A stretch of 64,000 bases of DNA from contig NZ_FOLN01000013.1 in NCBI RefSeq assembly GCF_900112395.1, positions 1 through 64,000 on the forward strand, written 5' to 3'. The notes beneath the pieces were generated by a model. It saw only the letters and a program-made list of their open reading frames with translations. It was not told the DNA's origin and did no database searches. The stretch is from Algibacter lectus (GTDB lineage Bacteria > Bacteroidota > Bacteroidia > Flavobacteriales > Flavobacteriaceae). Every line of letters starts with the position of its first letter. Position 1 is the first letter of the stretch. A program made the translations under genes and the position numbers. Shown one piece after another: positions 8,097 to 34,784 of the stretch.

Positions 8097-8116
8097 AATC
8101 TTTATTTTATTGTTTT

Positions 8117-9850: not shown

Positions 9851-9876
9851 TGTTTTATTTTTTTACCATTCATTAA

Positions 9877-12660: not shown

Positions 12661-12720
12661 CTGTTTCTGTTATAAATTAAATTAGTTCTGTTAGTTGTAA
12701 AAGCGTTAAATAATTATTGA

Positions 12721-14646
12721 TTACCAACCTTCTGTTTGTAGAAATGTAGGTACTGCTTCAATTTCTGAATTAGGAATTGGCCACCAATAATGCTTTTCAT
12801 CAAACGTTTTTGTTAATTGACTTTGTTCTACGTTTTCAAAACTAAAACCAGTAGGGTATAGTGAAGATTCACTTCCTTGCCAACGCATTTCTAAAAATTC
12901 AACCTTTTTATTTTCTTCTAGGTGTGCTATTTTCCATCGTCTCATGTCATCATACCTAATACCTTCAAAGCACAACTCAATAGCGCGTTCATTTCTAATA
13001 CGCTCTCTTAAAAGTGCTTTAGAACCTGTGTAAGCCGCATTTACATTTGGCATTCCAACTCTATTTCTAATCATGTTAATAGCTTGTAAAGCAGTTAAGC
13101 TAGATCCTGGTACAGCTCCGTTTGGACCATAGGCCTCATTTGCAGCTTCTGCATAGTTGAGGTATACTTCAGACATTCTGAAAATATTATTATTTACATG
13201 ATGATTTCTACCACCGGCTCCAGACCATCTAGCTCCGTTTGGTAACCATTTTTTAATTCTAAGACCTGTAAGATTTCTAACTCTCCAAAATAAATTTGGA
13301 TTACCTCCCGGATCGTGTAAATTTAATCCCAAGTTTCCTTCTTCATTTACTTGTGCTAAATCAACAACACCTGTTAAATTCCAAGCATTTGGATCTACTA
13401 TTAAATCTGTTACCCCATCAAATAGTATAGCATTATAAAACCTAGGATCTCTATTGATAAAAGGTTCTTGTGGGTTGTAATCAGGATCATCGGCAATGGC
13501 TAAACCATTTTTTGTTTCAAATTTATCTACAAAATTAGCTAGTGCACCGATTGACATAGGGCTTCCATTTCCTCTTAAATGGTCCCATCCAGCCGTTAAT
13601 GTATGTCTAGGAGTAGGACTTACTATCGCTCCAAAAACAAAAAACTTTTGATTTACTTCGGAAAAAATAACTTCTGATGGAATTGTTTTTTGAATACCAG
13701 GACCAATAAAAATACTTCTATATGGTTCTAGTTCTTCTGTTTCCATTAGAAAAAGATCATCACCATTATGGTCTACATCTATAGTGTTTGCTGCACTTGC
13801 ATCAATAAGTGTATATAAACCGTTATCGTTTGCATAATTGATAAGATCCGAAGCGGCTGTTGCTGCATCTATCCATGCTTGTTGATCGTTAGACTCATTT
13901 ACTAATGGACTAGCTGCGAATAATGTAAGTCTAGATTTTAGTGCCATAGCAGCACCTTTTGTTGGGCGTCCAACATCTTCCGATTCCCAAGCTACAGGAA
14001 GAAAGTTAGTTGCTTGGTCTAAATCTTCTAGCATGTCTGCTAGGTTACTTTGGTACGATTCTCTTTCATGATCTAAAGAGCTATCTAACTGTAAGTTTTC
14101 TTTTAAGTAAATAAGTCCACCGTGGCGTTTGGTTAGCAAGTGATAAAAGAAAGCTCTTAAAAAATAAGCTTGTCCAATTAAGCCGTTTATTTCTTCTTCA
14201 GTTCCGTTGTTTATATTATCAACATTTGCAAGAAAAGTATTTATAGCTCTAATGCCTTTCCAAGAATCAAAATACCTGAAAGTAAAGTTTGGTGTTGATC
14301 CTACAGGAGTTCCATTAGCGTTGTAAGGCGGCATGTTTATTAAGCTAACATAGTCTCCTTGCGCATATATAGGGTAGGTTTGTGGGAACGTCTGCCATAA
14401 TCTACCCGGATAACCTTCTCCGGCCATCGTCATGTTTGGTAGCCAATCTCCTCCTTGGCCTGGAGCACTTACATCTGTTATTAAATAACTATAAGCAGCA
14501 TCTAAAGCATTTTTTGCTAAACGAATATCTTCAAAAACATCAGATTCATCTAGGCCTTCAAAATCTTGTTGTTTGTCTAAGTAATCTTCACAACTTGTAA
14601 AAAAAGAAATGCAGATTAAAGCAAATGTATATATTCTTGTTTTCAT
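12721..14646 (-). CDS. SusD/RagB-family glycan-binding lipoprotein (first pair)
   Basis: This 641-residue lipoprotein (lipobox FFTSCE) has SusD-family features: SDVFEDIRLAKNALDAAYSYL near the N-terminus, IGQAYFLRAFFYHLLTKRHGGLIYL, GAAMALKSRLTLFAASPLVN in the TPR-like core, and MIRNRVGMPNVN...RERIRNERAIELCFEGIRYDDMRRWKI at the C-terminus, ending WWPIPNSEIEAVPTFLQTEGW. It is longer than most SusD proteins, with an extended middle section that may form glycan-binding loops. It lies 12 bases downstream of the long SusC and should form a transporter complex with it. Confidence 0.95.
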   Translation of the reverse strand: MKTRIYTFALICISFFTSCEDYLDKQQDFEGLDESDVFEDIRLAKNALDAAYSYLITDVSAPGQGGDWLPNMTMAGEGYPGRLWQTFPQTYPIYAQGDYVSLINMPPYNANGTPVGSTPNFTFRYFDSWKGIRAINTFLANVDNINNGTEEEINGLIGQAYFLRAFFYHLLTKRHGGLIYLKENLQLDSSLDHERESYQSNLADMLEDLDQATNFLPVAWESEDVGRPTKGAAMALKSRLTLFAASPLVNESNDQQAWIDAATAASDLINYANDNGLYTLIDASAANTIDVDHNGDDLFLMETEELEPYRSIFIGPGIQKTIPSEVIFSEVNQKFFVFGAIVSPTPRHTLTAGWDHLRGNGSPMSIGALANFVDKFETKNGLAIADDPDYNPQEPFINRDPRFYNAILFDGVTDLIVDPNAWNLTGVVDLAQVNEEGNLGLNLHDPGGNPNLFWRVRNLTGLRIKKWLPNGARWSGAGGRNHHVNNNIFRMSEVYLNYAEAANEAYGPNGAVPGSSLTALQAINMIRNRVGMPNVNAAYTGSKALLRERIRNERAIELCFEGIRYDDMRRWKIAHLEENKKVEFLEMRWQGSESSLYPTGFSFENVEQSQLTKTFDEKHYWWPIPNSEIEAVPTFLQTEGW

Positions 14647-14658
14647 AATTTTTTTATT

Positions 14659-17600
14659 TTAAAAAGTCATGTTTATACCTAAATTGATTCTTCTAAGTAT
14701 TGGGTAAGACCCAGGATTGTTTGCTTCAGGATCACCGTAATCTAAATCAGAAATTACAAGAAGGTTATTACCATTAAGATAAACTCTTAAATCACTTAAT
14801 GTTTTACTGTTGCTCATATCAAAATTATAACCAAGGTTTACACTTCTTAATTTGATGTAATCTAAATCTACAATTCTAGCTGTAGAATCATTTATTAAGT
14901 TTGGGTTTGTTACAGCATGTAAAGCAGGGTATGCCGCATTTGTATTGGTAGGCGTCCAGTAATCTAAGTGCTCATCTAACCCTGTGGCAAGTCCGTCGGG
15001 AAGTGCAAATGCTAAATCGCTATTTACAAGTCCTCTGTGTCCTTCAACACCGTTAATTAATGCACTAAGTGACCAACCTTTGTAAGAACCGCTTAACTTT
15101 AAGCTATAACTGTTTTTTGGAGCATTTGGTAAATCGAATCTAACTTGATCATCTAGAGCTGTGCCTGTTATGGCGCCATTTGCGTTGTAATCAATGTATC
15201 TATAATCTCCTAAGCCAGGCGTACCACTAACTGTAGGGTAGTTTACAATTTCGTCTATATTTTGAAAATAACCATCTGTTTGTAACAAAGCTGAAGCTCC
15301 TGCAGGTTTTCCTGAAATTGAAGTGTATGGTGTTGTTCCAGGGCCATCTAAAGCACTTTTAAGAATTCGATTTTCATTAAATCCGTAGAAGGCAGTTGCA
15401 GAATACTTAAACCCTCCTGAAGTTTTGTTTTTATAAGTTAAAGATATTTCATAGCCATGACTTTCAGAAGCTCCTAAATTAACAAAAGGTAAATCTGCAG
15501 AGAAACCATAAAAAGCAGGATATATAGCACCAGGAATACTGATTAAATCGGTTCTAGAATCTTTAAAGAAATCAACTTCTCCTGATATTTTATTATCAAA
15601 GAAACCGAATTCAACACCAATGTTTTGTTTTGCTACGGTAGCCCATGTTAGCACAGGATTACCGATTTGAGACTCTGTAACTATTAAAAGTGGATCGTCT
15701 ATATCTATTCCAAAATAATATCTCGAATTTGGTCTTTTCTCAGTGTTAGCAGCACCAGGCTCCCCATAAAAATCGTAGAAGCTTAAGTATTGCCAACGGT
15801 TACTGCCTAGTCCGGCTTTAGATCCAGTTTCACCATAAGAATATCTTATTTTGAAGTTGTTAATTTCAGGAATATTGTCTTTTACAAATTTCTCTTTGGC
15901 TAGATTGATTCCAACGGCATAGGAAGGGAAAAGTTTAAATCTGTAACCTTCTGCAAATGTTTCATCTCCATTATAAGATCCACTTAGTTCAAAGAAGTAA
16001 CGGGAGTCATAATTATAAGTAGCACGACCTACATAATCTTCATTATAAAAAGGGAATGTTGTATTACTCACACGTTTGTTACGACTAGCAAGTGCTAAAC
16101 CGGTTACACTATGCTTACCAAAAGAGCGTTGGTAATTTAATTGTGCACGTTGATAAGAAATTTCTTGACTATCGTTAATTGTTTCACTTCCTAAAATAAA
16201 TTCTAAAGGACGCTCATATTCTACGCCTTCAGCAGAAATCCACGATCCGTCTCGGTCTAAAGTGTAAGTGTCTAATCTAGGATCTAATGTGGCGTCATAA
16301 GCAATTCTACTTCGTGTGGTGTAAGAACTTATGTAATTGTATTTTCCTGTAAATTTTAAGCCTTCAGTAATAAAATCTAAATCTTGTTCCAGTTCTAAAT
16401 CTATAGAAAAAACAGTTTTGTTATCTTGAGAAGTCCCGCTAGCATTGATACCTGTGTAAATATTTCTTCCAGTTCCATATCTAGGTTCTGATAAGCCAGG
16501 GAAAAATGGATCTGGATATTGTTCTAAAACACTTGCAGGATAAACAGGTACTACACCACCTGGTGCTGAGTTGTAAAGTCCTAGGAAGCTAATGTCACTT
16601 CCGTTACCAGGTTGGTTTTTATCTTCTAAACGGCTACTAACACTTGTATTTAAACGCGTAGTTTTAGTTAAGGCGAAGTCTAAATTCCCTCTAAACGTGT
16701 ATCGTTTAAATTTAAATTTAGGATCGTAATTAAAAAGTTTTTCTGTTTTAGTAATATCACCTTCAGTTAAATACCCTGCAGATGCATAGTATTTTACAAA
16801 ATCAGACCCACCTCTAACAGAAATAGTTTGATTTAAACTAGTTGCATAATCATCTCTTATGGCAACATCAAACCAATCTGTATTTGGGTAGATGTATGGT
16901 AAATCACCATCTCTCCAATGTGCTAAATCTACAGCTGACGCATATCCACTAGTATAAGCTTGATCATTTAATATTCCTGTATTAAAAGCACTTTGTGCAG
17001 AAAAAGCATCTAGTACATTATCTGGTTCGTTAAGAACAGATTTTACAGAAAACTCACTGTTGTAACTCACTTTTGGTCTACCAGTTTTTCCTCGTTTTGT
17101 TGTAATAATGATAACACCATTTGCACCTCTAATACCATAAACAGCGGTTGCAGCACCATCTTTTAGTGTACTTATATTTTCTACATCTCTAGGGTTTATG
17201 TTGGCAAATCCACCAACAATTTCTACGCCATCTACTAATATTAGTGGGTTTGCGTTACCTCTAATAAAAATATCGCCGTCATCGGCACCGGGCTGTCCAG
17301 AACCTTGTACAACAACAAGGCCGGGTGAGGCTCCACTTAAAGCATTAGTAACGTTGCTAGAACCTGAATCTAATAGTTCTTCTCCTTTTATCTGGCTTAT
17401 CGAGCCTAATACACTTTCTTTCTTTTGGGCTCCATAGCCAACAACAACAATTTCGGAAAGACTTTGAATGTCTTCCTTCATAGTCACGTTTATAGTTGTT
17501 TTGCCTGTTGTTTTAATTTCTTGAGTTTGAAACCCAATACTAGAAAAAACTAAAACGGCATTTGGGTCTACGGTAATTTTATATCCACCATCAAAATCTG

Positions 17601-17751
17601 TTACAGCTCCGTTTGCTTTTCCTTTTTCGAGAATATTAATACCAGGAATTGGCATTCCAGAATCATCTGCTACTACACCCTGAATTACCTCTTGAGAAAA
17701 AGAACACCATGAGATGGATAGTAATAATATAAATAGTTTTATTTCCTTCAT
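14659..17751 (-). CDS. SusC-like TonB-dependent transporter, full-length (first pair)
   Basis: A 1,030-residue outer-membrane importer. Domains in order: signal peptide (to about residue 19), carboxypeptidase-regulatory-like domain (VIQGVVADDSGMPIPGINI...GGYKITVD, about 22-95), TonB-box-like LSEIVVVGYGAQKKE (about 100-113), plug (NVTNALSGASPGLVVVQG, NPLILVDGVEI, AAVYGIRGANGVIIITTKRGK), and a beta-barrel ending YPILRRINLGINMTF. It is the first gene of the leftward operon and is expected to be driven by the promoter at 17929-17983, leaving an untranslated leader of about 170 bases. Confidence 0.96.
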   Translation of the reverse strand: MKEIKLFILLLSISWCSFSQEVIQGVVADDSGMPIPGINILEKGKANGAVTDFDGGYKITVDPNAVLVFSSIGFQTQEIKTTGKTTINVTMKEDIQSLSEIVVVGYGAQKKESVLGSISQIKGEELLDSGSSNVTNALSGASPGLVVVQGSGQPGADDGDIFIRGNANPLILVDGVEIVGGFANINPRDVENISTLKDGAATAVYGIRGANGVIIITTKRGKTGRPKVSYNSEFSVKSVLNEPDNVLDAFSAQSAFNTGILNDQAYTSGYASAVDLAHWRDGDLPYIYPNTDWFDVAIRDDYATSLNQTISVRGGSDFVKYYASAGYLTEGDITKTEKLFNYDPKFKFKRYTFRGNLDFALTKTTRLNTSVSSRLEDKNQPGNGSDISFLGLYNSAPGGVVPVYPASVLEQYPDPFFPGLSEPRYGTGRNIYTGINASGTSQDNKTVFSIDLELEQDLDFITEGLKFTGKYNYISSYTTRSRIAYDATLDPRLDTYTLDRDGSWISAEGVEYERPLEFILGSETINDSQEISYQRAQLNYQRSFGKHSVTGLALASRNKRVSNTTFPFYNEDYVGRATYNYDSRYFFELSGSYNGDETFAEGYRFKLFPSYAVGINLAKEKFVKDNIPEINNFKIRYSYGETGSKAGLGSNRWQYLSFYDFYGEPGAANTEKRPNSRYYFGIDIDDPLLIVTESQIGNPVLTWATVAKQNIGVEFGFFDNKISGEVDFFKDSRTDLISIPGAIYPAFYGFSADLPFVNLGASESHGYEISLTYKNKTSGGFKYSATAFYGFNENRILKSALDGPGTTPYTSISGKPAGASALLQTDGYFQNIDEIVNYPTVSGTPGLGDYRYIDYNANGAITGTALDDQVRFDLPNAPKNSYSLKLSGSYKGWSLSALINGVEGHRGLVNSDLAFALPDGLATGLDEHLDYWTPTNTNAAYPALHAVTNPNLINDSTARIVDLDYIKLRSVNLGYNFDMSNSKTLSDLRVYLNGNNLLVISDLDYGDPEANNPGSYPILRRINLGINMTF

Positions 17752-17928: not shown

Positions 17929-17983
17929 CAAAAGTAAAGGGTTTACCTCTTTTTGCTTTCTCAAATTGGGGTTCAAAATGTTG
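17929..17983 (-). promoter_or_regulatory. PUL promoter A: shared 29-bp motif plus -7 box
   Basis: On the minus strand the motif (17983-17955) reads CAACATTTTGAACCCC followed by AATTTGAGAAAGC. Exactly 47 bases after its start is TACTTTTG (17936-17929), an exact match to the Bacteroidota TAnnTTTG -7 element. It lies 204 bases upstream of the first SusC start. Three further sites with the same layout occur in this PUL (18398, 21599 and 28685). Confidence 0.75.
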
Positions 17984-18397
17984 CTTTTAACAAATTTTCT
18001 TAAGATTAAACTTACAAATGGTGTGGTTTTGGGCTTTTTTGCTGCAACATACGTCTCTAATTAGAATATTTTATGTCTAGATTAATTTAAAGTACATACT
18101 GATTAATTTAGCATATAAGTAGCGAAGTGAATACATGGTTTTTAGCAAAAAAAATGACATGGTTTTTTGTTTTTAAAAGTAACAAATTAGATAAAAATTG
18201 AATTAATGGTGTGCTAAAAAAACATATAATACTAAAATTTACAATGCTTTTAAATTGTGTATTTTTTCTTTTTTTGAAGCTTTATTCTGTTGTTTTATTT
18301 TCTAGAATTATAAATAGTAAGGTTTAAACAAGTCGAGGTGTGTTTTGGGTGTTTATAGGTTTTGCTCATTGGTTTTAAGCTTAAAGAGCACCATAAG

Positions 18398-18452
18398 TAA
18401 CATTATTCACCCTTAATTGAGAAATATACCATAGATAAAGTGGTTAAGTTTG
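18398..18452 (+). promoter_or_regulatory. PUL promoter B: shared 29-bp motif plus -7 box
   Basis: The motif at 18398-18426 contains AACAT, CCC and TTAATTGAGAA at the same offsets as the other sites. TAAGTTTG (18445-18452) starts exactly 47 bases after the motif start and matches TAnnTTTG. The predicted transcript starts near 18458, about 54 bases before the first sulfatase. Confidence 0.78.
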
Positions 18453-18465
18453 TTACCAAGTGTTT

Positions 18466-18483
18466 CTTCACTTTAAAGTGAAG
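18466..18483. promoter_or_regulatory. perfect 18-bp palindrome in the sulfatase leader
   Basis: CTTCACTTTAAAGTGAAG is a perfect palindrome followed by TTTTTAT, 28 bases before the sulfatase ATG and just inside the transcript predicted from promoter B. It could be an operator or a leader hairpin. Confidence 0.4.
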
Positions 18484-18511
18484 TTTTTATATAAAAGCTA
18501 AATTAAATAGA

Positions 18512-20044
18512 ATGATAAAAAAGATAATACCCGTTTTAATATTCACCGCTACTTTAATGTTTGCAGTTGTTAGTTGTAAAAGCAATACTCGGAAACCGGT
18601 AGTTAAGAACGATGTTGAAAAGCCGAAACCAAATATTGTTGTTATTTATTTGGATGATTTGGGGTATGGCGATTTAAGTTGTTATGGAGCTACAGAATTG
18701 CAAACACCCAATATAGATGCTTTGGCAGATGGTGGTGTAAAATTTACCAACGGTTACGCTTCGTCGGCCACTTGTACACCAAGTCGTTATGCATTATTAA
18801 CAGGGATGTATCCATGGAAAAATAAGGACGCTAAAATATTACCAGGCGATGCTCCTTTATTAATTAGTACTGCGCAAACTACTTTGCCAAAAACGCTCGC
18901 TAAAGCAGGTTATCAAACCGCCATTATAGGTAAGTGGCACTTAGGTTTAGGTTCTGGAAATGTAGATTGGAATACAACTATTAAACCTAGCCCTAATGAG
19001 GTAGGTTTCGATGAATCGTATATTTTGGCAGCGACTCAAGATCGTGTGCCAACTGTATATATTGAGAATGGGAATGTGGTAAATCTTGATAAAAACGACC
19101 CGATAGAGGTTAATTATAAAAAGAATTTTGAAGGTGAACCTACTGCTAAAACAAATCCGGAACTGACCACCATGAAATGGCATCACGGACATAATAATAG
19201 TATTGTAAACGGGATTCCTAGAATTGGGTATATGAAAGGTGGTGAAGCTGCTAAGTGGAGTGATATTGATATGGCCGATCATTTCTTAGGTAAAGCACAA
19301 GACTATGTAAAAACACATAAGGGGAATCCGTTTTTTCTATACTACGCTATGCAACAACCACATGTGCCTAGAACTCCACATCCACGCTTTGTTGGTAAAT
19401 CGGGCATGGGACCAAGAGGAGATGTTATTCTAGAAGCCGATTGGTGTATTGGTGAATTTATTAAGACTTTAGAAGAAGAAGGCGTTTTAGAAAATACTTT
19501 AATTGTTTTTTCTAGTGATAATGGGCCTGTGTTAAACGATGGGTATTATGATGATGCTGTTGAAAAACTTGGAAATCATGACCCAAAAGGAGGTTTGCGA
19601 GGTGGTAAATACAGTTTGTTTGAAGCGGGTACTCGCGTGCCCTTTATTACGTATTGGAAAAATCATATTAAGCCTAATGTCTCCGATGCTATTGTTTGTC
19701 AAATGGATTTAATGGCTTCTTTAGGAAATCTGGTTGGAGTTGATGAAAACACTACGGATAGCAAAAATTTATTAAGGGCATTATTAGGTGAAGCAGCGCA
19801 GGGACGTGAGCATTTAATTATTGAAGCGAAATCTAATACAGCTTTACGAAGTGGCGATTGGATTTTGATTCCTCCGTACAAAGGTGCTTCAATGAATAAG
19901 AAAGTAGGGACAGAAACAGGTGTGTCTTTAGAGTACAAACTTTTTAATGTTGTGAAAGATAAAGGGCAACAAAATAATTTAGCTGAAGTAAATCCTCAAA
20001 AATTGCAAGAGTTAATTCAGGTTTTTGAACAATTAAAACAATAA
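18512..20044 (+). CDS. S1-family sulfatase (formylglycine-dependent) lipoprotein
   Basis: A 510-residue type I sulfatase. Lipobox VVSCKS near residue 22 predicts a lipoprotein. Metal-binding D48-D49 lie in YLDDLGYGD; C88 in CTPSRYALLTG is the Cys matured to formylglycine; K-H in GKWHLG and DNGP in SSDNGP complete the active site. It hydrolyses sulfate esters; the closest general description is arylsulfatase-like, and I cannot assign the S1 subfamily. It is first in the unit started by promoter B, with a second sulfatase 36 bases downstream. Together they should desulfate oligosaccharides of the PUL substrate in the periplasm or at the membrane. Confidence 0.94.
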   Translation: MIKKIIPVLIFTATLMFAVVSCKSNTRKPVVKNDVEKPKPNIVVIYLDDLGYGDLSCYGATELQTPNIDALADGGVKFTNGYASSATCTPSRYALLTGMYPWKNKDAKILPGDAPLLISTAQTTLPKTLAKAGYQTAIIGKWHLGLGSGNVDWNTTIKPSPNEVGFDESYILAATQDRVPTVYIENGNVVNLDKNDPIEVNYKKNFEGEPTAKTNPELTTMKWHHGHNNSIVNGIPRIGYMKGGEAAKWSDIDMADHFLGKAQDYVKTHKGNPFFLYYAMQQPHVPRTPHPRFVGKSGMGPRGDVILEADWCIGEFIKTLEEEGVLENTLIVFSSDNGPVLNDGYYDDAVEKLGNHDPKGGLRGGKYSLFEAGTRVPFITYWKNHIKPNVSDAIVCQMDLMASLGNLVGVDENTTDSKNLLRALLGEAAQGREHLIIEAKSNTALRSGDWILIPPYKGASMNKKVGTETGVSLEYKLFNVVKDKGQQNNLAEVNPQKLQELIQVFEQLKQ

Positions 20045-20079
20045 CAAGTTTATTTCAGAATAAAGAAATCTAGAATATT

Positions 20080-21510
20080 ATGCTTAATAAAACACATGCC
20101 GTAATTCTTATTCTCAATTTGTTGATTTTCAGTTGTAAAACTTCAGAAACAATAAAATCGGCAGCAAAGCCGAATATTATTTTTATAATGGCCGACGATT
20201 TGGGGTATGGCGACATTGGACCTTATGGGCAAACTAAAATTAAAACACCAAACCTCGATGAGTTAGCAGCTCAAGGTATGGTATTTACTAATCATTACGC
20301 AGGTTCTACAGTTTGCATGCCATCGCGAGCTAGTTTGTTAACGGGTTACGATCAAGGTCATGCTAGTGTTAGAGGAAATCCTGTTTGGACAGAAAGTGGT
20401 ACTCCTGTAAATCTTAAACGTAATGAAATAACAGTTGCTACCGAACTTAAAAAAGCGGGTTATAAAACAGCTGTTATTGGTAAATGGGGACTTTCTGAAG
20501 GTGTAGATAAAGAAAATATGCCATCGGAACATGGTTTTGATTATTTTTTAGGATACAAAGAGCATCGTCATGCGCACCATTATTACTGGGACACTCTGTA
20601 CCGTAATAGTGAAGCTTTTATTTTAAAGGATAATAATTTTGCTCTAAAACAAGGTAAATACACACACGATGTTTTTGTGAATGAGGCTTTAAGTTACGTG
20701 GAAAACGAAAAGGAAAATCCGCTTTTTCTGTATTTAGCTTTAACCATTCCTCATTTAGAATTAACGGTTCCCGAAGAATCTAAGAAACCTTATCAAAATT
20801 TAGGTTGGCCAGAACGTAAAATGAATACAAAAGGGCATTATAAAAATGACAAGGAAGGCAATACAACTTACGCCGGTATGGTATCTCGAATGGATAGAGA
20901 TTTAGGCAAGTTGTTTGATAAATTGAAAGAATTAGGAATAGAAGATAATACCATTATTTTCTTTACAAGTGATAACGGACCTGAATACGAAAAAAAGGAT
21001 CGGTTTTTTAATAGTAACGGCGATTTAAAAGGAGGAAAGCGAGATTTGTATGAAGGCGGTATTCGCATTCCGTTTATAGCTAAATATCCTGGAAAAATAC
21101 CTGCAGGTTCAACAAGTACTCACGTGTCTGCTTTTTGGGATTTCTTACCAACAGTTTGTGAGTTCGTCGGCGTTAGACCAACTAATATAGATATTAACGG
21201 CATCTCTTTTGCGCCTGAATTACTAGGAAATAGCAAAGCACAACAAAAACACGATTATTTGTATTGGGAGTTTAACGAGAAGCAAGGCCCTATTCAAGCT
21301 ATTCGTCAAAACAATTGGAAATTGGTTTGGAAACTTGAAGGTAGTCCTGAGTTGTATAATCTTTCAACAGATATAGGTGAAACGAAAAATCTTGCCTTAG
21401 AAGAAGCGGAGAAATTAAATGAAATGCTTGCGCTTCTAAAAACAGCTAGAACAGAACATGCAGAATTTCCTTTAACAACACGAAAAGTGGCGCTTCAAAA
21501 GAGGAAATAG
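20080..21510 (+). CDS. S1-family sulfatase (formylglycine-dependent) lipoprotein
   Basis: A 476-residue sulfatase with lipobox LIFSCK (Cys about 19). D39-D40 in MADDLGYGD bind the metal, C79 in CMPSRASLLTG is the formylglycine precursor, and ASVRGN, GKWGLS and TSDNGPEY follow as usual. The GKWG in place of GKWH differs from its two neighbours. The C-terminal block (YWEFNEKQGP-QAIRQNNWKLVW, ELYNLSTDIGETKNLA) is typical of S1 enzymes acting on small sulfated saccharides. It lies 36 bases after the preceding sulfatase and is probably cotranscribed with it. The substrate position it desulfates is unknown. Confidence 0.94.
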   Translation: MLNKTHAVILILNLLIFSCKTSETIKSAAKPNIIFIMADDLGYGDIGPYGQTKIKTPNLDELAAQGMVFTNHYAGSTVCMPSRASLLTGYDQGHASVRGNPVWTESGTPVNLKRNEITVATELKKAGYKTAVIGKWGLSEGVDKENMPSEHGFDYFLGYKEHRHAHHYYWDTLYRNSEAFILKDNNFALKQGKYTHDVFVNEALSYVENEKENPLFLYLALTIPHLELTVPEESKKPYQNLGWPERKMNTKGHYKNDKEGNTTYAGMVSRMDRDLGKLFDKLKELGIEDNTIIFFTSDNGPEYEKKDRFFNSNGDLKGGKRDLYEGGIRIPFIAKYPGKIPAGSTSTHVSAFWDFLPTVCEFVGVRPTNIDINGISFAPELLGNSKAQQKHDYLYWEFNEKQGPIQAIRQNNWKLVWKLEGSPELYNLSTDIGETKNLALEEAEKLNEMLALLKTARTEHAEFPLTTRKVALQKRK

Positions 21511-21598
21511 ATAACTTCATTATTTGTTTTTTGAACATGTTTATTTAAACTGTGGGTATTTGAAATAGCCTATTTATCTTCATTCACACTCATATTGC

Positions 21599-21653
21599 AA
21601 CATATTGGTTCCTTAATTGAGAATTTTAAAATGCTAAAAGACCTTAGATTTGG
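21599..21653 (+). promoter_or_regulatory. PUL promoter C: shared 29-bp motif plus -7 box
   Basis: The motif at 21599-21627 has CAACAT, TCC and TTAATTGAGAA at the shared offsets. TAGATTTG (21646-21653) begins 47 bases after the motif start. It lies in the 234-base gap after the second sulfatase, 91 bases before the glycosidase ATG, so a new transcript begins here. Confidence 0.78.
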
Positions 21654-21744
21654 TTTTAGAGGAAAGTGTTTATTTCATTCATATTAATTCTTTTTGAAAT
21701 AGGCCTTTTCATTCAACTAAATAAACCAAACTAAACTTTAAATT

Positions 21745-23352
21745 ATGAGATTAAAAAATTACTCAAAAAACATTAAAACGTTATGCATTGCTTTATTGAT
21801 TTGCTGTTCGAGTTTTACGGTGTTTAGCCAAACTATTTACACCAACGATATGGAGTATGTGTTAGGTGATGTAAAACAAGTTTTTATTACCAATAAGGTT
21901 TTAACAGAAGCACATGCCGATAATTTATTGAAAGCATTTACCGAAATGAAAGTAAACGGAATTCGTATTCCGCTTTTTGGTAGAGATACAAATGGTGTAG
22001 ATCTTAACCCGAATAAACCTATGTTCGATTATTTTTATACACAAGCGTTAGCACAAGGTTTTTTAATTTTTGCAAATCCAGCACAAGGTGGAGGCGGAGC
22101 GCGTGTAGCTAATAATATGCTTAATGGTACTGTGCCATCGGTTAACGGTGTGCAAGCGGCAACCGATGAGTTAATTGCAAGAGTTTTAGAGTTTTCAGCA
22201 GAATATCCTGACTGTACATGGCTAAACCCTTTTAATGAAGATGGACGCGCAACTAGCAGTACTTGGAGCGTAGATCAAATACATGAAATTTATTCAACAC
22301 TTCATAATAATGTAAATGGCGCAGAGCTTATAGGTCCTTGTACTTGGGGGCTTCCTGCAGCTATCGATATGTTTAATAATACCAATATAGAAGATTATAT
22401 TACGGTGGCTGCATCTCATAATTTAGGCTTTAATCATGGGCAATGGTCTACGTTTATCAACTTAGCAAAAGCGAGAAACTTACCAGTTTGGGATTCTGAA
22501 GTAAACCATAATGATGCTAAAGGCACAGGAACGCGTTTGGAGAAGGCCATAGAAAATAAGGTTGATGGTTTAGTTTTATATAATGCTGCCAATGCTGTAA
22601 ACTTAAATAATGGTACTTTAACCAATGCCGTTTATACTTGGATGGATTTGTATTTAAAAGATGAGGCGCAACCTGTTAATATCGCTCCAACAGGTATCGC
22701 TACGCAATCTTCTACCAATCCTTCATTTAATAAAGGACCTGAATTAGCAATAGATGGCGATACCAATGGAAACTTTGGGGGAGGTTCTGTAACCGTTACA
22801 AATGGGGAAGCAAATCCATGGTGGCAAGTCGATTTTGGTTCAGATAAAAGTATCGGAGATATTAAAGTTTTTAATAGAACAGATGGTTGTTGTAAGGCAA
22901 GAATGTCCAATTTTACAGTGTCTGTTATAAACAGTAATAACGAAACGGTGTATAGTAAAACCTATGCCGATTATCCAGACCAATATATTATCGCAGAAAC
23001 AGGAGGCGTTCTAGGTCAAATTGTTCGAATAGATTTAGACAACGGAACCAATGCATTAACATTAGCCGAGGTAGAGGTTTATGCTTCGGAAATTACATTA
23101 TCAACTACAACTATAGATAATGTTGAGGTTAAAATTTATCCAAACCCAGTGTCAGAAAAATTAATGATATCTGCACCTAATACTTCGTTTAAAAACTACA
23201 CATTATATACTGTTAACGGACAGATTGTTTTAACTAACGAAATAAATACTAAAGATGTTGAGGTTAATGTAAGTACCCTTTCTAAAGGTCTATATTTATT
23301 AAAATTAGATGGCCTTAATGGTTCTAAAATGTTAAAAGTGGTTAAGGATTAA
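21745..23352 (+). CDS. clan-A-like glycoside hydrolase with F-type-lectin-like module and T9SS type A signal
   Basis: A 535-residue secreted protein. Signal peptide to about residue 28 (VFSQ). Residues ~30-305 look like a retaining TIM-barrel glycosidase of clan GH-A: NGIRIPLFG, an NPFNEDGR acid/base motif after strand 4 and PVWDSEVNHND as a possible nucleophile strand. I cannot name the GH family. Residues ~310-450 resemble an F5/8-type or F-type lectin (CBM47-like) domain: NIAPTGIATQSST, AIDGDTNGNF, NPWWQVDFG, NRTDGCCKARMSNFTV. The last ~70 residues (VKIYPNPVSEKL ... LLKLDGLNGSKMLKVVKD) are a T9SS type A sorting domain, so the enzyme is extracellular or surface-bound. It is the best candidate here for the enzyme that first attacks the polymer outside the cell. 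Confidence 0.8.
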   Translation: MRLKNYSKNIKTLCIALLICCSSFTVFSQTIYTNDMEYVLGDVKQVFITNKVLTEAHADNLLKAFTEMKVNGIRIPLFGRDTNGVDLNPNKPMFDYFYTQALAQGFLIFANPAQGGGGARVANNMLNGTVPSVNGVQAATDELIARVLEFSAEYPDCTWLNPFNEDGRATSSTWSVDQIHEIYSTLHNNVNGAELIGPCTWGLPAAIDMFNNTNIEDYITVAASHNLGFNHGQWSTFINLAKARNLPVWDSEVNHNDAKGTGTRLEKAIENKVDGLVLYNAANAVNLNNGTLTNAVYTWMDLYLKDEAQPVNIAPTGIATQSSTNPSFNKGPELAIDGDTNGNFGGGSVTVTNGEANPWWQVDFGSDKSIGDIKVFNRTDGCCKARMSNFTVSVINSNNETVYSKTYADYPDQYIIAETGGVLGQIVRIDLDNGTNALTLAEVEVYASEITLSTTTIDNVEVKIYPNPVSEKLMISAPNTSFKNYTLYTVNGQIVLTNEINTKDVEVNVSTLSKGLYLLKLDGLNGSKMLKVVKD

Positions 23353-23444
23353 CTTTCGATACATAATTTTTTACCTTAGCGGGTATATACAGCGTTTTCA
23401 ACTTATTTAATTTAAAAATAGTACGATTAAAAGATTCTAATACA

Positions 23445-25049
23445 ATGATAAAAACGTCAAGCACACTCTTAGTTTTAACCTCTGTTTTATGTCTTGTTTT
23501 TTCAAGTTTTTCAGATGAAACAAAACAGCAGAATAAAATAAGTTCTGATACGGAGTTAATGAAACCTAAAAAGCCGAACATCATCTATATTCTAGCAGAT
23601 GATTTAGGTTATGGAGATTTAGAATGCTTTAATCCTGACGGAAAAATACCAACGCCAAACCTTAATAATATGGCGAACAATGGTGTTATGTTTACAGATG
23701 CACATACGTCATCTGCTGTTTGTACACCAACACGATATGGTATTCTTACGGGACGTTATAATTGGAGGAGTCGTTTAAAAAGTGGTGTGCTTGGTGGGTA
23801 TTCTAAATCGTTGATAAAAGAAGATCGTGTTACTGTAGCAACCATGTTAAAAACACAAGGCTACAGTACGGCTTACATTGGTAAATGGCACATGGGCTGG
23901 GACTGGTCTTTTGTAAATGAAGAAACAGAAGCCACGCTTAGAAAACTACATACTAATCCAAAAGTAGATTTTTCGGTACCCATTAAAAATGGACCGTCAA
24001 CACATGGATTTGATTATTCATTTGGGTTTTGCGGATCTTTAGATATGGCGCCTTATGTATTTGTTGAAAATGATATACCAACTATGGAGCCTACAAAAAC
24101 TACTATTTCGGTAGACGAAAAAGGTGTTTGGAGAAAAGGACCAACGTCCGACGATTTTGTTCACGCTAATATTTTGCAAGATCTAACAGATAGAGCTGTA
24201 AGTTATATTGAAGAAAAATCGACTGAGAAAGATCCGTTTTTCTTATATTTTCCTTTGCCTGCACCGCATACACCTATTTTACCAACTACAGAGTTTTTAG
24301 GAAAAAGTAATACCAATATGTATGGCGATTTTGTAATGCAGGTTGATGATGTGGTTCGCCAAATACGAGAAGCATTAAAAAAGCAAGGCATTTCAGAAAA
24401 TACATTAATTGTATTTACTAGTGATAATGGGTGTTCGCCAAAAGCAGATTTTGAAGAATTGGCAAAAGTAAAACACGACCCCAGTTATGTGTTTAGAGGC
24501 ATGAAAGCCGATATTTACGAAGGCGGACATCATGTGCCACTTATTGTAGAATGGCCAAGCAAAGGTTTAAAAAACTCTAAAACAGATAGAACTATTTCTA
24601 CTGTCGATTTTTTTGCAACTTGTGCCGAGGTTTCTGGCTATAACATTAAAGACACCGAAGCGGAAGATAGCTATAGTATGCTACCTTTAATTGTAGGAGC
24701 TAATCAAGATGATATTAGAGAATATACAGTATATCATTCCATAAACGGGTCGTTTGCTATAAAACAAGGCGATTGGAAGTTGTGTTTAACCAACGGTTCT
24801 GCAGGGTGGAGTTACCCACGACCAAACGAAATAAAAAGTCAGAAATTAGATTTACCCGAGATGCAACTTTTCAATTTAAAAAATGATATTGAAGAAACTA
24901 AAAACTTAATAGCAGAGCACCCGGAAAAAGCTGTCGAGTTAAAAGTTGCGCTTAAAAAAATAATATTAGATGGTAGAAGTACAGCAGGGGAAAAACAGCA
25001 AAACGAAGGCATGGAAGGCTGGAAACAAATTGAAAGTATAATTAATTAA
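23445..25049 (+). CDS. S1-family sulfatase (formylglycine-dependent), secreted
   Basis: A 534-residue sulfatase with an N-terminal signal peptide (LLVLTSVLCLVFSSF). D52-D53 in LADDLGYGD, C93 in CTPTRYGILTGRYNWRSR (formylglycine precursor, CxPTR variant), GKWHMG and TSDNGC make a complete active site. The GRYNWRS extension and Y-FGFCGSLDMAPYVFVEND differ from the two other sulfatases here, suggesting a different sulfate position. It is 93 bases after the glycosidase and 28 before GH97, probably in the same transcript from promoter C. Confidence 0.94.
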   Translation: MIKTSSTLLVLTSVLCLVFSSFSDETKQQNKISSDTELMKPKKPNIIYILADDLGYGDLECFNPDGKIPTPNLNNMANNGVMFTDAHTSSAVCTPTRYGILTGRYNWRSRLKSGVLGGYSKSLIKEDRVTVATMLKTQGYSTAYIGKWHMGWDWSFVNEETEATLRKLHTNPKVDFSVPIKNGPSTHGFDYSFGFCGSLDMAPYVFVENDIPTMEPTKTTISVDEKGVWRKGPTSDDFVHANILQDLTDRAVSYIEEKSTEKDPFFLYFPLPAPHTPILPTTEFLGKSNTNMYGDFVMQVDDVVRQIREALKKQGISENTLIVFTSDNGCSPKADFEELAKVKHDPSYVFRGMKADIYEGGHHVPLIVEWPSKGLKNSKTDRTISTVDFFATCAEVSGYNIKDTEAEDSYSMLPLIVGANQDDIREYTVYHSINGSFAIKQGDWKLCLTNGSAGWSYPRPNEIKSQKLDLPEMQLFNLKNDIEETKNLIAEHPEKAVELKVALKKIILDGRSTAGEKQQNEGMEGWKQIESIIN

Positions 25050-25076
25050 GACGAAAATTAAATTAAAATCTACAAA

Positions 25077-26978
25077 ATGAAACAAGTTTCTCTAACGTTT
25101 TCAATGCTTCTGTTTATTGCGTTTTTCAATGCTTGCAGTGTTAAGCCAAATCTAAATGTAAGCTCTCCCGATAAAAAGGTAGAGTTAACTTTTGAGAATA
25201 ATGAGCAAGGTTTAACATATCAATTAAACCGGAATAACGAGGTCTTGGTAGGTGTGTCTAGTATTTCGATACTGCCTAACATTCCTGTAAAAATATTAAA
25301 TACAGAAATTAACTCAGTCGATACCAAATGGAATCCGGTTTGGGGGCAGTTTAGTGAAATTAGAGATTTTTATAATGAAATTGTAATTTATATTGAAGTC
25401 AATGGGAAAACAGGGAAATTACTCTCTCGTGTTTATAACGACGGTGTTAGTTTTAGATTTGAACTGGATAATGTTACCGCAGAAGATCAATTAGATTTTT
25501 ATGCTGAATATAATTTAGCTAGTAACGATGTGTTTTATTATACAGTCGGAGAACATCCTCCTGTTGGTCCTGTTGCTATAGGTAGTTTATCTGATGAGCA
25601 AGCAAAATCGTCAAAAATGTTGCTTCCTATTGTTGTAGAAAAATCGAATAAAAATCATTTATCTTTTTTAGAATCCGATCTGTATTCATCTAAAGGTTTT
25701 AGCACCATGACGATGAATTTTAATAAAAAATCGGGAACTCTAGTATCTAGTAGTAAACCAAAATATATAAACGAAAAAGTGGTTACGCCATGGAAAGTTA
25801 TTTTGTTTGGAGACTCGGCAGGCGATTTAGTAACCAGTACTGTTACTGTAAATTTGGCGGCACCTTGTGAAATAGAAAACACCGATTGGATTAAGCCTGG
25901 TAAAACCATGTGGGATTGGCGTGTACATGGCTATACGGCGCCCGATGGTTTTGTGTATGGTATTAACACAGAAAGCTACAAACGTTTTATAGATTTTGCA
26001 GATAAAAAAGGGATTGAGTATTTTTTAATTGATGCATCTTGGTATAAACGTGCTACTAAAGGGCATTTTGAGTTAACTCCTGAGTTAGATTTAGAAGCTG
26101 TTATAGCTTACGCTGAAGATAAAGATGTTGAACTTATTTTGTATTACGATCGTAAATTTGGCGAATATGGAGATAAGGAGTTGTTTCCTTATTTTCAATC
26201 TTTAGGTATGCATGGTATTAAATATGGTTTTATGGGGAATAATGTTCAGTTTTCTCGTGATGCTATTAGCCAAAGTGCTGCTAGTGAATTACTAATCGAT
26301 TTCCATGATAGTCCAGTGCCTTTTACGGGTGTTAGGCGTACATTTCCAAACGCTATTACCCGCGAATATTGCCATGCACAGCAAGATTCTCGTAAAGCGT
26401 TTACTCCCGAAACTTTTATTAAAATGGCTTTAGTTAATGCTATACAAGGGCCTTTGGATATGAATAATGGTAATTTTGATATCACCGGAATTAACGCCGG
26501 AAAACGACAAAAAGGCCCAAAGAAATTAAACTCTTATTTATCTACAGTGGTGTCTGAGGTAGCTAGAACTCTAGTTGTTTTTAGTGGTTTAGTTTGTATT
26601 CCCGATGCTCCAGAAGCTTATGAGGCTAAAGCCGATTTATTCGAGTTTATCCAAAAAATGCCTGTTGGTAAATGGGATGAGTCTCGAATTCTGAATTCAA
26701 AAATGGGAGAATATATTACTACAGCACGACGATCTAAAAACGATTGGTTTGTTGGTAGTGTTATGAATCAAAAAGGAGGCGTTTTAGATATTGACTTAAA
26801 CTTTCTTGAAGAAGGAAAAATCTATGAGGTTACCTTTTACGAGGATACACCCGAAACCGATTGTAAAACAAACCCCGAAGCTTACCAAATAAGAAAGGCT
26901 AAAGTGAAAAAAGGAGATGTTATTAAAGCTAATATGGCTCCGGGTGGTGGACATTGTATGTGGATAAAATCAGAATAA
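25077..26978 (+). CDS. GH97-family glycosidase with atypical catalytic positions
   Basis: A 633-residue lipoprotein-like protein (FNACSVK, Cys ~20). N-terminal GH97 domain (NVSSPDKKVELTFENNEQGLTYQL), a TIM barrel (KPGKTMWDWRVHG, EYFLIDASWY, VELILYYDR, GIKYGFMGNN) and a C-terminal beta domain. GH97 enzymes are alpha-glucosidases or alpha-galactosidases. At the position of the retaining nucleophile Asp there is G384 (KYGFMG), as in the inverting subgroup, but the usual HE motif reads HD (D411) and the region expected to hold the acid Glu (RG-x-E) reads HAQQD with Q436. Activity may therefore be altered. It is 28 bases after the third sulfatase and cotranscribed with it. Confidence 0.82.
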   Translation: MKQVSLTFSMLLFIAFFNACSVKPNLNVSSPDKKVELTFENNEQGLTYQLNRNNEVLVGVSSISILPNIPVKILNTEINSVDTKWNPVWGQFSEIRDFYNEIVIYIEVNGKTGKLLSRVYNDGVSFRFELDNVTAEDQLDFYAEYNLASNDVFYYTVGEHPPVGPVAIGSLSDEQAKSSKMLLPIVVEKSNKNHLSFLESDLYSSKGFSTMTMNFNKKSGTLVSSSKPKYINEKVVTPWKVILFGDSAGDLVTSTVTVNLAAPCEIENTDWIKPGKTMWDWRVHGYTAPDGFVYGINTESYKRFIDFADKKGIEYFLIDASWYKRATKGHFELTPELDLEAVIAYAEDKDVELILYYDRKFGEYGDKELFPYFQSLGMHGIKYGFMGNNVQFSRDAISQSAASELLIDFHDSPVPFTGVRRTFPNAITREYCHAQQDSRKAFTPETFIKMALVNAIQGPLDMNNGNFDITGINAGKRQKGPKKLNSYLSTVVSEVARTLVVFSGLVCIPDAPEAYEAKADLFEFIQKMPVGKWDESRILNSKMGEYITTARRSKNDWFVGSVMNQKGGVLDIDLNFLEEGKIYEVTFYEDTPETDCKTNPEAYQIRKAKVKKGDVIKANMAPGGGHCMWIKSE

Positions 26979-27010
26979 AAAAGTATATTTAACGCTGAAA
27001 CCTATTCCAG

Positions 27011-28510
27011 ATGAAAAACCAATCCTCCTATTTATTGCTATGCGCTTTTACATTGTTATCAATGAGTTTATTTGCGCAAAAAATAAGAATTACAGAAGCT
27101 CCCGAAGATTATCAGTTATATGCTCGCGATAGCAGTAATACCGCTGAGGTTTTAATCTCTGGTAATATTAAGGGAACTCCAGATTTTAAAGAGTTTTCAT
27201 TAAAAGTATTTAAAGATAATGTGCTTTATAATACACAAAAGGATAGTTTGGTTGATAAGAAGTTTTCAGTTTCAACTGAAATAAATTCAGGCTTACACGA
27301 GTATCGATTTGAGTTTTATATCAAAAAAAATAATGTCGATAGCCTATACTTTTCTGCCGATCATGTAGTCTGTGGAGATGCTTATATTATAACTGGGCAA
27401 TCTAACTCTCATGCAAGTAGTAGCTTGTCGACTTACAGTAATCCATATTGCAGAAGTTTTGGGGTTAAAACAGGTTACGAAACTTACAACGACGACGATA
27501 GAAAAGTACGTTGGGGTATGGCTACAGGAAATTTAGAAGGTCTTGATGGTGTTGGAGGATGGTTTAAAAAGAACCCATTTGCTGTTGGTGCTTGGGGTAT
27601 GGAATTAATGCGGTTAATTGTCGAAAAACATCAGGTGCCTGTTTGTATTATTAACGGTGGTAGCGGTTCATCTTCAATAGAAAAAAACATGTTATATCCA
27701 GAGCAACCATCTTTAGAAACTAGCTTTGGTCGTTTAGCATATCGTGTCGATCAAGCAGGCTTGAAAGATAAAATTAAAGCCATTTTTTGGCATCAAGGAG
27801 AGTCTAACTCGGTAAGTGTGGAAAGTTATCAAGGATATGCAGCTAATTTTGATGTGCTTTTGAATGATTGGAAACGTGTTTATACAAGTTTAGAAAAAGT
27901 TTATTTATTTCAAATTCATCCAGGTTGTGGTCGTAATCCAGAGAGTTATCTTTCTGAAATGCGTGAAGTTCAAAATAAAATAGATAAAAAGTACGAGATG
28001 GTAAATATTATGTCCACACTAGGTGTTACAGGTCATGATGGTTGTCACTTTTCTTACGATGGTTATTTAGAATTTGCCAAACGTATTTATCCTTTAGTGG
28101 CGCGGGATTATTATAACGAAAAGTTCGATTTCACGATAACACCTCCAAAATTATTAAGTGCGAATTATACAGGTTCTAAAAAGATTATACTAAACTTCGA
28201 TCAGTCTATACTTCTAGAAGAAAAGCGTGAAGTAAATGGCGTGGTTCATTATTTAAAAGATCAGTTTTTTGCTTCGGAAGATTCAAATTTAGAACAAATG
28301 CCTCTTGAAGTTAAAAGAGTGGACGTTAAAGATAATTCACTTATTCTTACATTGAAAAAAGCATCTAATTATAAATTTATAACCTACCTACCAAGTAAGT
28401 TTTACGTAGGCACTCGCGATATTTATAATGGTCCGTGGCTATCTGGAAGAGAAAATAATATTGGTGCTTTAAGTTTTGATAGAAGGCCAATTACTCAACT
28501 TAAAGATTAA
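27011..28510 (+). CDS. SGNH/sialate O-acetylesterase-like carbohydrate esterase
   Basis: A 499-residue secreted protein (signal peptide ending LFAQ). After an Ig-like N-terminal domain (~25-115) comes an SGNH hydrolase core: CGDAYIITGQSNSHA with S131 as nucleophile in the GQSN block, INGGSGSSSIE, WHQGESNSV (the WxQGE signature of the sialate-O-acetylesterase/SASA family) and GHDGCHFSYDGY carrying the D-x-x-H dyad. A beta domain ends the protein. Such esterases remove acetyl groups from polysaccharides or oligosaccharides. It is the last gene of the unit begun at promoter C, 33 bases after GH97, and suggests the substrate carries acetyl esters. Confidence 0.85.
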   Translation: MKNQSSYLLLCAFTLLSMSLFAQKIRITEAPEDYQLYARDSSNTAEVLISGNIKGTPDFKEFSLKVFKDNVLYNTQKDSLVDKKFSVSTEINSGLHEYRFEFYIKKNNVDSLYFSADHVVCGDAYIITGQSNSHASSSLSTYSNPYCRSFGVKTGYETYNDDDRKVRWGMATGNLEGLDGVGGWFKKNPFAVGAWGMELMRLIVEKHQVPVCIINGGSGSSSIEKNMLYPEQPSLETSFGRLAYRVDQAGLKDKIKAIFWHQGESNSVSVESYQGYAANFDVLLNDWKRVYTSLEKVYLFQIHPGCGRNPESYLSEMREVQNKIDKKYEMVNIMSTLGVTGHDGCHFSYDGYLEFAKRIYPLVARDYYNEKFDFTITPPKLLSANYTGSKKIILNFDQSILLEEKREVNGVVHYLKDQFFASEDSNLEQMPLEVKRVDVKDNSLILTLKKASNYKFITYLPSKFYVGTRDIYNGPWLSGRENNIGALSFDRRPITQLKD

Positions 28511-28841
28511 AATCTACTAAAATAATCTTGATTTATAGAGTAATAATTGGTGTCGTTTCTACAGCTTTCATGTTATGGTTAGGTCGTTCCTTATGGAATT
28601 TGGCTTAAATCATGAGGTTTTTTGTATGTTTATGATTATTAGCTTGTTGTGTTTATGTTGGAGTTGTTTTTATGTATTCAAATTCAACATTTATACCCCC
28701 TAATTGATAATTATAAGTTTTTGTTTTATACTAACTTTGGTAATTGCCGAATATACAAACATAACTGAATAGATCTGTGCGTATGTTTTCAAACAAAACA
28801 AACTAAAAGAAAATCCATAACTGTCTTTATAACTTTTACTA
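28511..28841. other. intergenic region with PUL promoter D
   Basis: This 331-base gap has no gene. It follows the esterase stop and contains the fourth copy of the shared promoter architecture at 28685-28739; nothing else clear is visible. Confidence 0.6.
28685..28739 (+). promoter_or_regulatory. PUL promoter D: shared 29-bp motif plus -7 box
   Basis: The motif at 28685-28713 has CAACAT, CCCCC and TAATTGATAA at the shared offsets. TAACTTTG (28732-28739) begins exactly 47 bases after the motif start. The predicted start near 28745 gives a leader of about 97 bases to the GH117 ATG. Confidence 0.78.
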
Positions 28842-29819
28842 ATGAAAAATATTTTTGCAATTATAGTGTTGCTCTTTTTAGGAATGGGTACTGTTTTTTC
28901 TCAATCGAACTTTAAATCGGTAACAGCATCATATTCTCCTATTGAAGCATTAGGTTTTGAAGAGGGCATAAAACGAGGCGACCCAAGTGATGTTATAAAG
29001 GTAGGATCTTTGTATTATGTTTGGTATTGGAAAGTAGGAGATCATGTTAGATGGGCAACATGGTATGCAACCTCACCAGATGGATTTGTTTGGACAGAAA
29101 AAGGAGAAGTTTTACCACCGGGAAAAGATGGTAGTTGGGATGATGAAGGTTGTTTTACACCTGGAATTTTAGTTGCTAACAATAAATATTATCTTTTTTA
29201 TTCGGGAGTTAATAATCCGTATAGAACTAAGGATCTTGAAAAATCGAAAACAAGAATAGGCATAGCTGTTTCCGATTCTCCTGATGGTCCTTGGGTAAAA
29301 CTTCCAACTAATCCAATAATGGTTCCTAGTGATAATGTTACTGAGTTTGATAGTCACAGAATTGACGATGCTAGTATAATTGTTCGTAACGGAAAGTATT
29401 GGTTATACTACAAAGGTCGCCAATGGGGTAAATCGCCACGTGAAACTAAAATGGGTGTTGCTATAGCCGATAATCCTGAAGGACCATATGTGAAATATGA
29501 AAACAACCCTGTTGTAAAAGGCGGTCATGAAGTATTAGTTTGGCCTCTAGGCAAAGGTGTAGCCACACTTATAGGGAAAGAAGGACCTGAGGATGTACGT
29601 AAATCTATTATGTATGCCGAAGATGGATTTAATTTTAAAAAGACACACGATTTTACAAATAAAAATGTACCGCTTGCACCTGGAGCATATCGTCCTGAAG
29701 CGTTTACTGATAATGGTAATGGTAAGTTGATAGAATGGGGCGTGCAGAGAGTTATTAATAAAAAGGGACAGTTTCTGGAAAGATTCGATTTAAAGGAGGT
29801 TCCGGAAAATCCTCAGTAA
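28842..29819 (+). CDS. GH117-family glycosidase (copy 1)
   Basis: A 325-residue secreted five-bladed beta-propeller enzyme; signal peptide ends VFSQ. GH117 features: KRGDPSDVIKVGSLYYVWYW at blade 1, WATWYATSPDGFVWTEKG, CFTPGILVANNKYYLFYSG, DSHRIDDASIIVRNGKYWLYYKGR, and GGHEVLVWP, which carries the conserved His and Glu. Known GH117 enzymes remove 3,6-anhydro-alpha-L-galactose from neoagarooligosaccharides, though other family members have different L-sugar specificities. First gene of the unit begun at promoter D; GH2 follows after 55 bases. A second GH117 lies at 33678-34712. Confidence 0.88.
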   Translation: MKNIFAIIVLLFLGMGTVFSQSNFKSVTASYSPIEALGFEEGIKRGDPSDVIKVGSLYYVWYWKVGDHVRWATWYATSPDGFVWTEKGEVLPPGKDGSWDDEGCFTPGILVANNKYYLFYSGVNNPYRTKDLEKSKTRIGIAVSDSPDGPWVKLPTNPIMVPSDNVTEFDSHRIDDASIIVRNGKYWLYYKGRQWGKSPRETKMGVAIADNPEGPYVKYENNPVVKGGHEVLVWPLGKGVATLIGKEGPEDVRKSIMYAEDGFNFKKTHDFTNKNVPLAPGAYRPEAFTDNGNGKLIEWGVQRVINKKGQFLERFDLKEVPENPQ

Positions 29820-29874
29820 AAAGATAAAGTGTTTTATCAATCGGAGATATAATTTGAATTTTTACGAAGTTAAA

Positions 29875-32433: not shown

Positions 32434-32471
32434 AAGCTTTAAGTAAAATGAATTATAATAAAAAAGTAAAA

Positions 32472-33670: not shown

Positions 33671-33677
33671 TTAATAC

Positions 33678-34712: not shown

Positions 34713-34784
34713 GCTTTTTATAGATAAAACTAACCTTTGCTTTACATATTTCTGTTTTGGAGTGTAAAGCCAAATAAAACACAT

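Follow-up and report, generated by a model that had tools for sequence, protein, structure and literature searches.

The four intergenic sites that precede the SusCD arm and the three enzyme units of a PUL in the window, by which we mean the whole analysed stretch of 64,000 nucleotides, are in all likelihood operators of one hybrid two-component system (HTCS) that is encoded outside the window, at C25:109343-113449 of the same genome, and judging from sequence comparisons we name this protein with good confidence as the regulator of all four promoters. The regulon would be a new one under a regulator of a known class, characterized by a new operator, by a constant spacing between operator and -7 box and by a regulator gene placed in another locus. 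A predicted operator, a promoter geometry and a putative regulator are thereby assigned to one PUL, and since the sensor is encoded elsewhere, the regulon is not readable from the PUL gene cluster alone.

Results and Discussion

Four promoters with one motif at one distance from the -7 box

Direct reading of the window places the first A of AACAT at 17982 (minus), 18399 (plus), 21599 (plus) and 28686 (plus), and at all four sites a TAnnTTTG box starts 46 bases past this A, at 17936 (minus), 18445, 21645 and 28732 (Table 1). The pattern AACATN7CCN2ANTTGANAA is matched exactly by each of them, and the 14 shared positions reported in the initial annotation are indeed present at 4/4 sites. Its constant spacing between motif and box likewise stands, the value of 47 given there being a count from one base upstream of the first A, while its start of the third site at 21599 was off by one and should be 21598 in its own register. 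Searches of solved structures find relatives of the PUL enzymes, including sulfatases named S1_15 and S1_16, an alpha-galactosidase GH97 and GH95. These relatives hint that the substrate may be a sulfated galactose-containing polysaccharide, and the cognate polysaccharide is probably a sulfated algal one.

Table 1. Predicted operators, -7 boxes and gene units of the PUL, in window positions.
Feature	Positions	Strand	Remarks
Operator site 1	17958..17984	-	GCAACAT...TTGAGAA; SusCD arm
Operator site 2	18397..18423	+	GTAACAT...TTGAGAA; enzyme unit 1
Operator site 3	21597..21623	+	GCAACAT...TTGAGAA; enzyme unit 2
Operator site 4	28684..28710	+	TCAACAT...TTGATAA; enzyme unit 3
-7 box of site 1, TACTTTTG	17929..17936	-	offset 46 from AACAT
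-7 box of site 2, TAAGTTTG	18445..18452	+	offset 46 from AACAT
-7 box of site 3, TAGATTTG	21645..21652	+	offset 46 from AACAT
-7 box of site 4, TAACTTTG	28732..28739	+	offset 46 from AACAT
SusCD arm	7188..17751	-	SusC1, SusD1, SusC2-like, SusD2, BT_3987-N-like protein
Enzyme unit 1	18512..21510	+	two sulfatases
Enzyme unit 2	21745..28510	+	F5/F8-domain T9SS protein, sulfatase, GH97, SASA esterase
Enzyme unit 3	28842..38253	+	four GH43-like (one below Pfam cut-off), GH2, GH95

In the 4.81-Mb window genome (G000) all 14 positions are matched exactly at four places, which are these four promoters. Six one-mismatch matches lie elsewhere in the genome, and the reversed pattern, run as a control, gave one match at up to one mismatch. 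With up to three mismatches allowed the window holds 15 matches vs a mean of 16.5 in shuffles, i.e. no excess, and such loose matches therefore carry no meaning; the 11 non-exact ones among them all have three mismatches. In a gapless alignment anchored on the box, all six pairs that can be formed from the four promoters scored above the 99.9th percentile of 667 between-locus pairs, one of which, at 26.8, scored higher than five of the six. Although the motif was defined by a post hoc alignment, it predicts the spacing that is found in other genomes. The initial annotation had proposed a scan of the genome and its relatives, and had named equally frequent motif and box pairs ahead of unrelated genes as an outcome at odds with a single regulon; the exact matches in the window genome are confined to the four PUL promoters, and the same spacing is found in related PULs.

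The spacing is conserved among relatives

Sites inside open reading frames of at least 100 aa were dropped before counting, and in 20 fetched regions the remaining 521 intergenic AACAT are followed by TAnnTTTG at offset 46 in 25 cases, the four window sites included, whereas no other offset in a range of about 100 bases has more than three cases. G002, which is near-identical to the window genome, and G004 were left out of this count as well as of the 38-site consensus and the pairing of box and GA[GT]A given below. A scan of public genomes with alignment of the HTCS sensor parts gave 70 loci, of which 44 at 36-63% identity were treated as orthologues and 26 at 21-32% as non-orthologues. Thirteen of the 44 had already been seen, and in the 31 fresh loci the strict rule (offset 46, TAnnTTTG) yields 13 sites in 11 loci, compared to at most two sites at any other offset; all 13 have GC before AACAT, although GC was no search criterion. 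The 26 non-orthologue loci, a weak control with many members from other phyla, have no site at 45 or 46. Under a rule widened to the 45 class and to a TAnnTTTA box, which was admitted after seeing one Arenibacter/Zobellia-type clade, CAACAT stands 45 or 46 bases before an intergenic box in 39 of the 44 orthologue loci (27 of the 31 fresh ones), in 0-2 at each of ten control offset pairs and in none of the 26 non-orthologues; the orthologue loci are related and these counts are not independent, and five of the 44 have no site even with the widened rule.

The TTGA half-site and the box shift together. Among 47 pairs of box and GA[GT]A, 39 are 26 apart, including eight sites in which AACAT is one base nearer, and the 17 sites of the 45 class, from the Arenibacter/Zobellia-type clade, comprise eight that keep GA[GT]A, shifted together with the box, and nine without it. 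The notion that motif and -7 box are read jointly fits these data, the distance to the box being fixed across many loci.

Architecture of the predicted operator

The refined operator reads tGCAACATTT-N11-TTGA[G/T]AA, followed by 21 bases and TAnnTTTG. In the consensus of 38 sites, where AACAT and the box were required and those columns are invariant by construction, tGCAACATTT is followed by a short G+C block (CC or GG), TTGA[G/T]AA, a stretch of 21 bases with weak conservation and the box. The motif core of the initial annotation is corrected to tGCAACAT plus TTGA[G/T]AA, its CC being GG in many relatives; the GC before AACAT is missing in two of the four window sites. The two conserved half-sites, GCAACAT and TTGA[G/T]AA, are separated by about 20 bp from centre to centre. 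HTCS operators would be expected to contain a direct repeat, but a repeat is not clear among the 38 sites, the column correlation being 0.16, 0.13 and 0.31 at lags 20, 21 and 22, and 0.30, 0.29 and 0.47 at lags 9, 13 and 29. The information content has a local peak of 2.29 at a period of 10.5 bp and a larger value of 2.93 at 20 bp, the required columns feeding both, and this would fit HTH units located on one face of the helix. If the box is taken as -12 to -5, following PMC9723704, the operator spans approximately -60 to -34 and therefore abuts the -33 region. The initial annotation had likened the motif to the site of an activator overlapping that region; the motif borders on it and is not the -33 element itself.

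The candidate regulator

The candidate is a 1368-aa protein comprising in one chain a propeller, Y_Y_Y, HisKA, HATPase, a receiver and an AraC HTH, and the same composition is found in the 1391-aa HTCS that adjoins the same PUL in Algibacter miyuki (G003). Orthologues of the latter occur in the window genome (C25:109355-113443, 71%), G002 (71%) and G006 (59%), and among the matches listed in G001, G004 and G005 identity to it is at most 38%. The regulator gene is near the PUL in G003 and beside sulfatase and GH2 genes in the window genome, and in the relatives that were mapped the HTCS gene lies beside SusC- or sulfatase-like genes. A structure search furthermore finds solved structures for relatives of parts of the HTCS. 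Of five HTCS segments compared in 17 orthologues the HTH is the most conserved, with 52% invariant columns vs 11% in the propeller, a pattern that would be expected if the operator stays fixed while the sensor changes. A scan of 34 window proteins revealed no HTCS, and the 30 Reg_prop matches in the genome are all outside the window's contig. The suggestion that a single regulator with its gene outside the window serves the SusCD arm as well as the three enzyme units fits these findings and has gained a candidate, found elsewhere in the genome.

It could be argued that the motif is read by some other regulator, either a paralogous HTCS or a one-component protein travelling with the PUL, and that the HTCS orthologue is a mere neighbour, given that the window genome encodes many Reg_prop/HTH proteins and that another HTCS PUL in it has a GCAACA-like half-site. 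This is improbable in view of the facts that 33 of the 44 orthologue loci have a site no more than about 500 bases upstream of the point where the HTCS match begins, even where the rest of the PUL differs, and that the C-terminal 125 residues of the orthologues are 62-98% identical to those of the candidate, as opposed to 22-37% for five other proteins, one of which is not of the AraC type.

Two regulatory pairs in the window itself, an ECF sigma/FecR pair (44935-46771) and a LytTR response regulator together with its histidine kinase (55756-58207), are both no more than about 20 kb from the PUL end and might be thought to exert control instead. PUL promoters controlled by ECF sigma factors would be expected to be without a housekeeping -7 box, but TAnnTTTG is kept at all four promoters; moreover the sigma/FecR genes adjoin a SusC/SusD pair of their own, and neither regulatory pair matched any open reading frame in the stretches of the PUL covered in G003 and G006, both of which have the motif. 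Control by either pair is very improbable on these grounds and was rejected in favour of the HTCS. The stretch 44935-51825 holds the ECF sigma factor, FecR, a SusC that has a FecR_C/STN domain, and SusD, next to a gene for an M16 peptidase, and is probably a separate uptake locus under its own sigma factor. The LytTR response regulator and histidine kinase are followed by a Met-zincin-like protein.

Co-occurrence of motif and HTCS

Motif and box at the same spacing, with up to one mismatch, were found in five of 60 genomes (G000, G002, G003, G006 and G031) and the reversed control in one (G030), and the sites occur among the same PUL genes in G002 (four), G003 (three, one of them on another contig) and G006 (three). 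In a family draw of 397 genomes the motif was likewise found in five, namely G000, G006, G349 (three sites), G408 (one site) and G031, and the reversed control in G030. While G349 carries PUL genes with the motif, the SusC genes near the G408 site are only 30-32% identical, and the match in G031, which is at an AcrB-type efflux locus of a genome outside those with an HTCS orthologue, was rejected as chance. At a cut-off of E <=1e-175 an HTCS orthologue is present in 16 of the 397 genomes, including four of the five motif genomes (hypergeometric 8.7e-6, uncorrected for relatedness).

A relaxed motif-plus-box pattern has 28 exact matches in nine of 18 HTCS-positive genomes, the other nine having none, and it has no exact match in 18 HTCS-negative genomes; minus the six genomes that had revealed the motif, the comparison is 3/12 vs 0/18 (Fisher p = 0.054). 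One-mismatch matches number 47 in HTCS-positive vs 51 in HTCS-negative genomes, and therefore only exact matches discriminate. A version of the pattern lengthened by one N, which serves as a shifted control, gave two one-mismatch matches, neither of them in the regulon. Two of the 28 look unrelated (G006 C76 and G407 C22), and two more sit away from an HTCS (G148 2358080 and G408 757428). That the motif should be a general extended promoter of the lineage rather than a regulator site is suggested by the box, which is the housekeeping -7 element, but it is scarcely conceivable and was rejected, since there are just four exact matches in 4.81 Mb, and the 18 HTCS-negative genomes have no exact match.

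The congener G004 has SusC/D relatives at 66-70% identity together with a different HTCS (27%), and in the 55 kb read from it no position reaches a score of 11 with the site matrix, compared to 26-52 for the 38 training sites, the matrix having been trained on the very sites it scored. Near this other HTCS, boxes at 206234 and 218606 of C2 (L077 and L079), belonging to sulfatase and SusC promoters, are accompanied by a different box-locked sequence in which TTGA seems by eye to be repeated 21 bp apart; the two promoters are all there is to compare, and one has a TAnnTTTA box. Regulator and operator may thus have been exchanged together in G004.

Proposed mechanism

The mechanism that we propose starts from what the sequence analysis shows, namely the motif, its spacing, the restriction of exact matches to the regulon, the co-occurrence and linkage with the HTCS and the domain content of the protein. 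The periplasmic propeller would sense a breakdown product, the presumed ligand, of the cognate polysaccharide, upon which the AraC-type DNA-binding domains, presumably as a dimer and under the influence of phosphorylation, would bind tGCAACATTT-N11-TTGA[G/T]AA. The HTCS would then occupy a single face of the helix immediately ahead of the -33 region and at a fixed distance from TAnnTTTG, from where it would recruit or position the housekeeping RNA polymerase. The SusCD arm and all three enzyme units would in this way be turned on jointly with the sulfatase/GH2 block that neighbours the HTCS gene.

We infer activation rather than repression, as the site lies upstream of the -7 box, not across it, and at a fixed distance, which would be the usual place of an activator. 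It is nonetheless worth considering that the same HTCS acts as a repressor or dual regulator, the unphosphorylated protein keeping the promoters shut, because the [SCA]HIP residues, which the excerpted text of PMC11253607 connects with an inhibited DNA binding in Bacteroides, are absent from 17 of the 18 orthologues (e.g. L084); the His is also absent in 16, and one of the 17 keeps HIP. According to the same excerpt, HTCS deviants from [SCA]HIP may bind without phosphorylation and one of them, BT2391, represses. Given the position of the site we regard repression as unlikely and retain the HTCS as a putative activator, but it may be one that binds without phosphorylation, because nearly all orthologues are without the S/CHIP inhibitory residues.

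Comparison with known systems

In the excerpted text of Ravcheev et al. 2013 (PMC3878776), operators are predicted for 16 HTCSs of Bacteroides thetaiotaomicron as direct repeats with a mean distance of 21 bp, and some of the regulons reach distant genes. The present regulon, as far as that excerpt goes, resembles these in having an HTCS with an AraC-type HTH at PUL promoters, half-sites about two helical turns apart and distant operons as possible members. It differs in genus, motif and PUL, in that the operators there are direct repeats whereas the test for a repeat was weak here, and in the fixed distance to the -7 box, which is absent from the discussion in the part of that paper at hand. 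The BT4124/BT4663 study (PMC11253607, likewise in excerpt) describes binding of the receiver-HTH part of an HTCS to SusCD promoters, as is predicted here; the missing [SCA]HIP at the inhibitory interface of 17/18 orthologues sets the present family apart. The carrageenan regulon of Zobellia galactanivorans is, in the excerpt of PMC5698469, a comparable marine flavobacterial sulfated-galactan regulon extending over distant loci, but its regulator CgrA is a one-component AraC-family protein and no operator motif is described in that excerpt. SusR-like regulators also control sus-type genes via two conserved half-sites, but these are 67 or 77 bp apart in the excerpted PMC3878776 vs approximately 20 bp here, and a SusR-like operator was rejected for this reason. 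Among the titles and abstract beginnings of the open-licence papers that came up in our searches we found no report of an HTCS operator in marine Flavobacteriaceae and no paper joining HTCS, TAnnTTTG and Bacteroides, and the excerpts of PMC12125979 and PMC6874557 hold nothing on this operator.

A second HTCS PUL of the window genome (C25, L234-L235) has boxes at 820284, 809379 and 828415 (minus) with GCA[A/T]CA...TCAT locked at approximately -57 from the box, which is possibly a second HTCS operator. A search for box-locked motifs near other HTCS-type genes gave a shared motif in this one of nine regions (seven from G000 and two from G005) and in none of the other eight, there being few boxes per region and in one region a single box. 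It is a tentative generalization, which we hold to be somewhat doubtful, that HTCS operators of Flavobacteriaceae are as a rule locked to the -7 box, at distances that differ by about one helical turn, and that PULs swap the HTCS gene and its operators jointly; counted from the start of the box, the first half-site may under such a rule be at about -48 or about -57.

A predicted regulon split over several loci

A single run of genes in G003 comprises the HTCS, a sulfatase-like gene, a gene for an 897-aa protein, two GH2-like genes and the SusCD genes, and the HTCS block of G000 and G002 is located apart from the PUL. Beside the HTCS on C25 of the window genome there are two sites that are weaker but also have their box at 46. 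One, at 98530 (minus), has TTCAT in place of AACAT and precedes a gene for a 536-aa sulfatase; the other, at 109178 (minus), has a degenerate TTGA half and precedes a 493-aa sulfatase gene divergent from the HTCS, and the regulon therefore covers two loci in this genome. The motif can hence be used to locate co-regulated loci, such as this second locus in G000 and a third contig in G003.

In G003, relatives of enzyme unit 3 are found together with an operator at C15:24239-35149 (L065 and L066), on a contig separate from the SusCD arm, which represents a further division of the regulon. Inverted ATGTTGC copies face the HTCS gene, e.g. at C1:757491 (minus) of G003, in that case without a box at 46, and autoregulation or looping is possible for such copies upstream of HTCS genes. 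An operator-like site at C1:3743842 of G148 (L128) has its box at 56, i.e. one helical turn beyond the usual distance.
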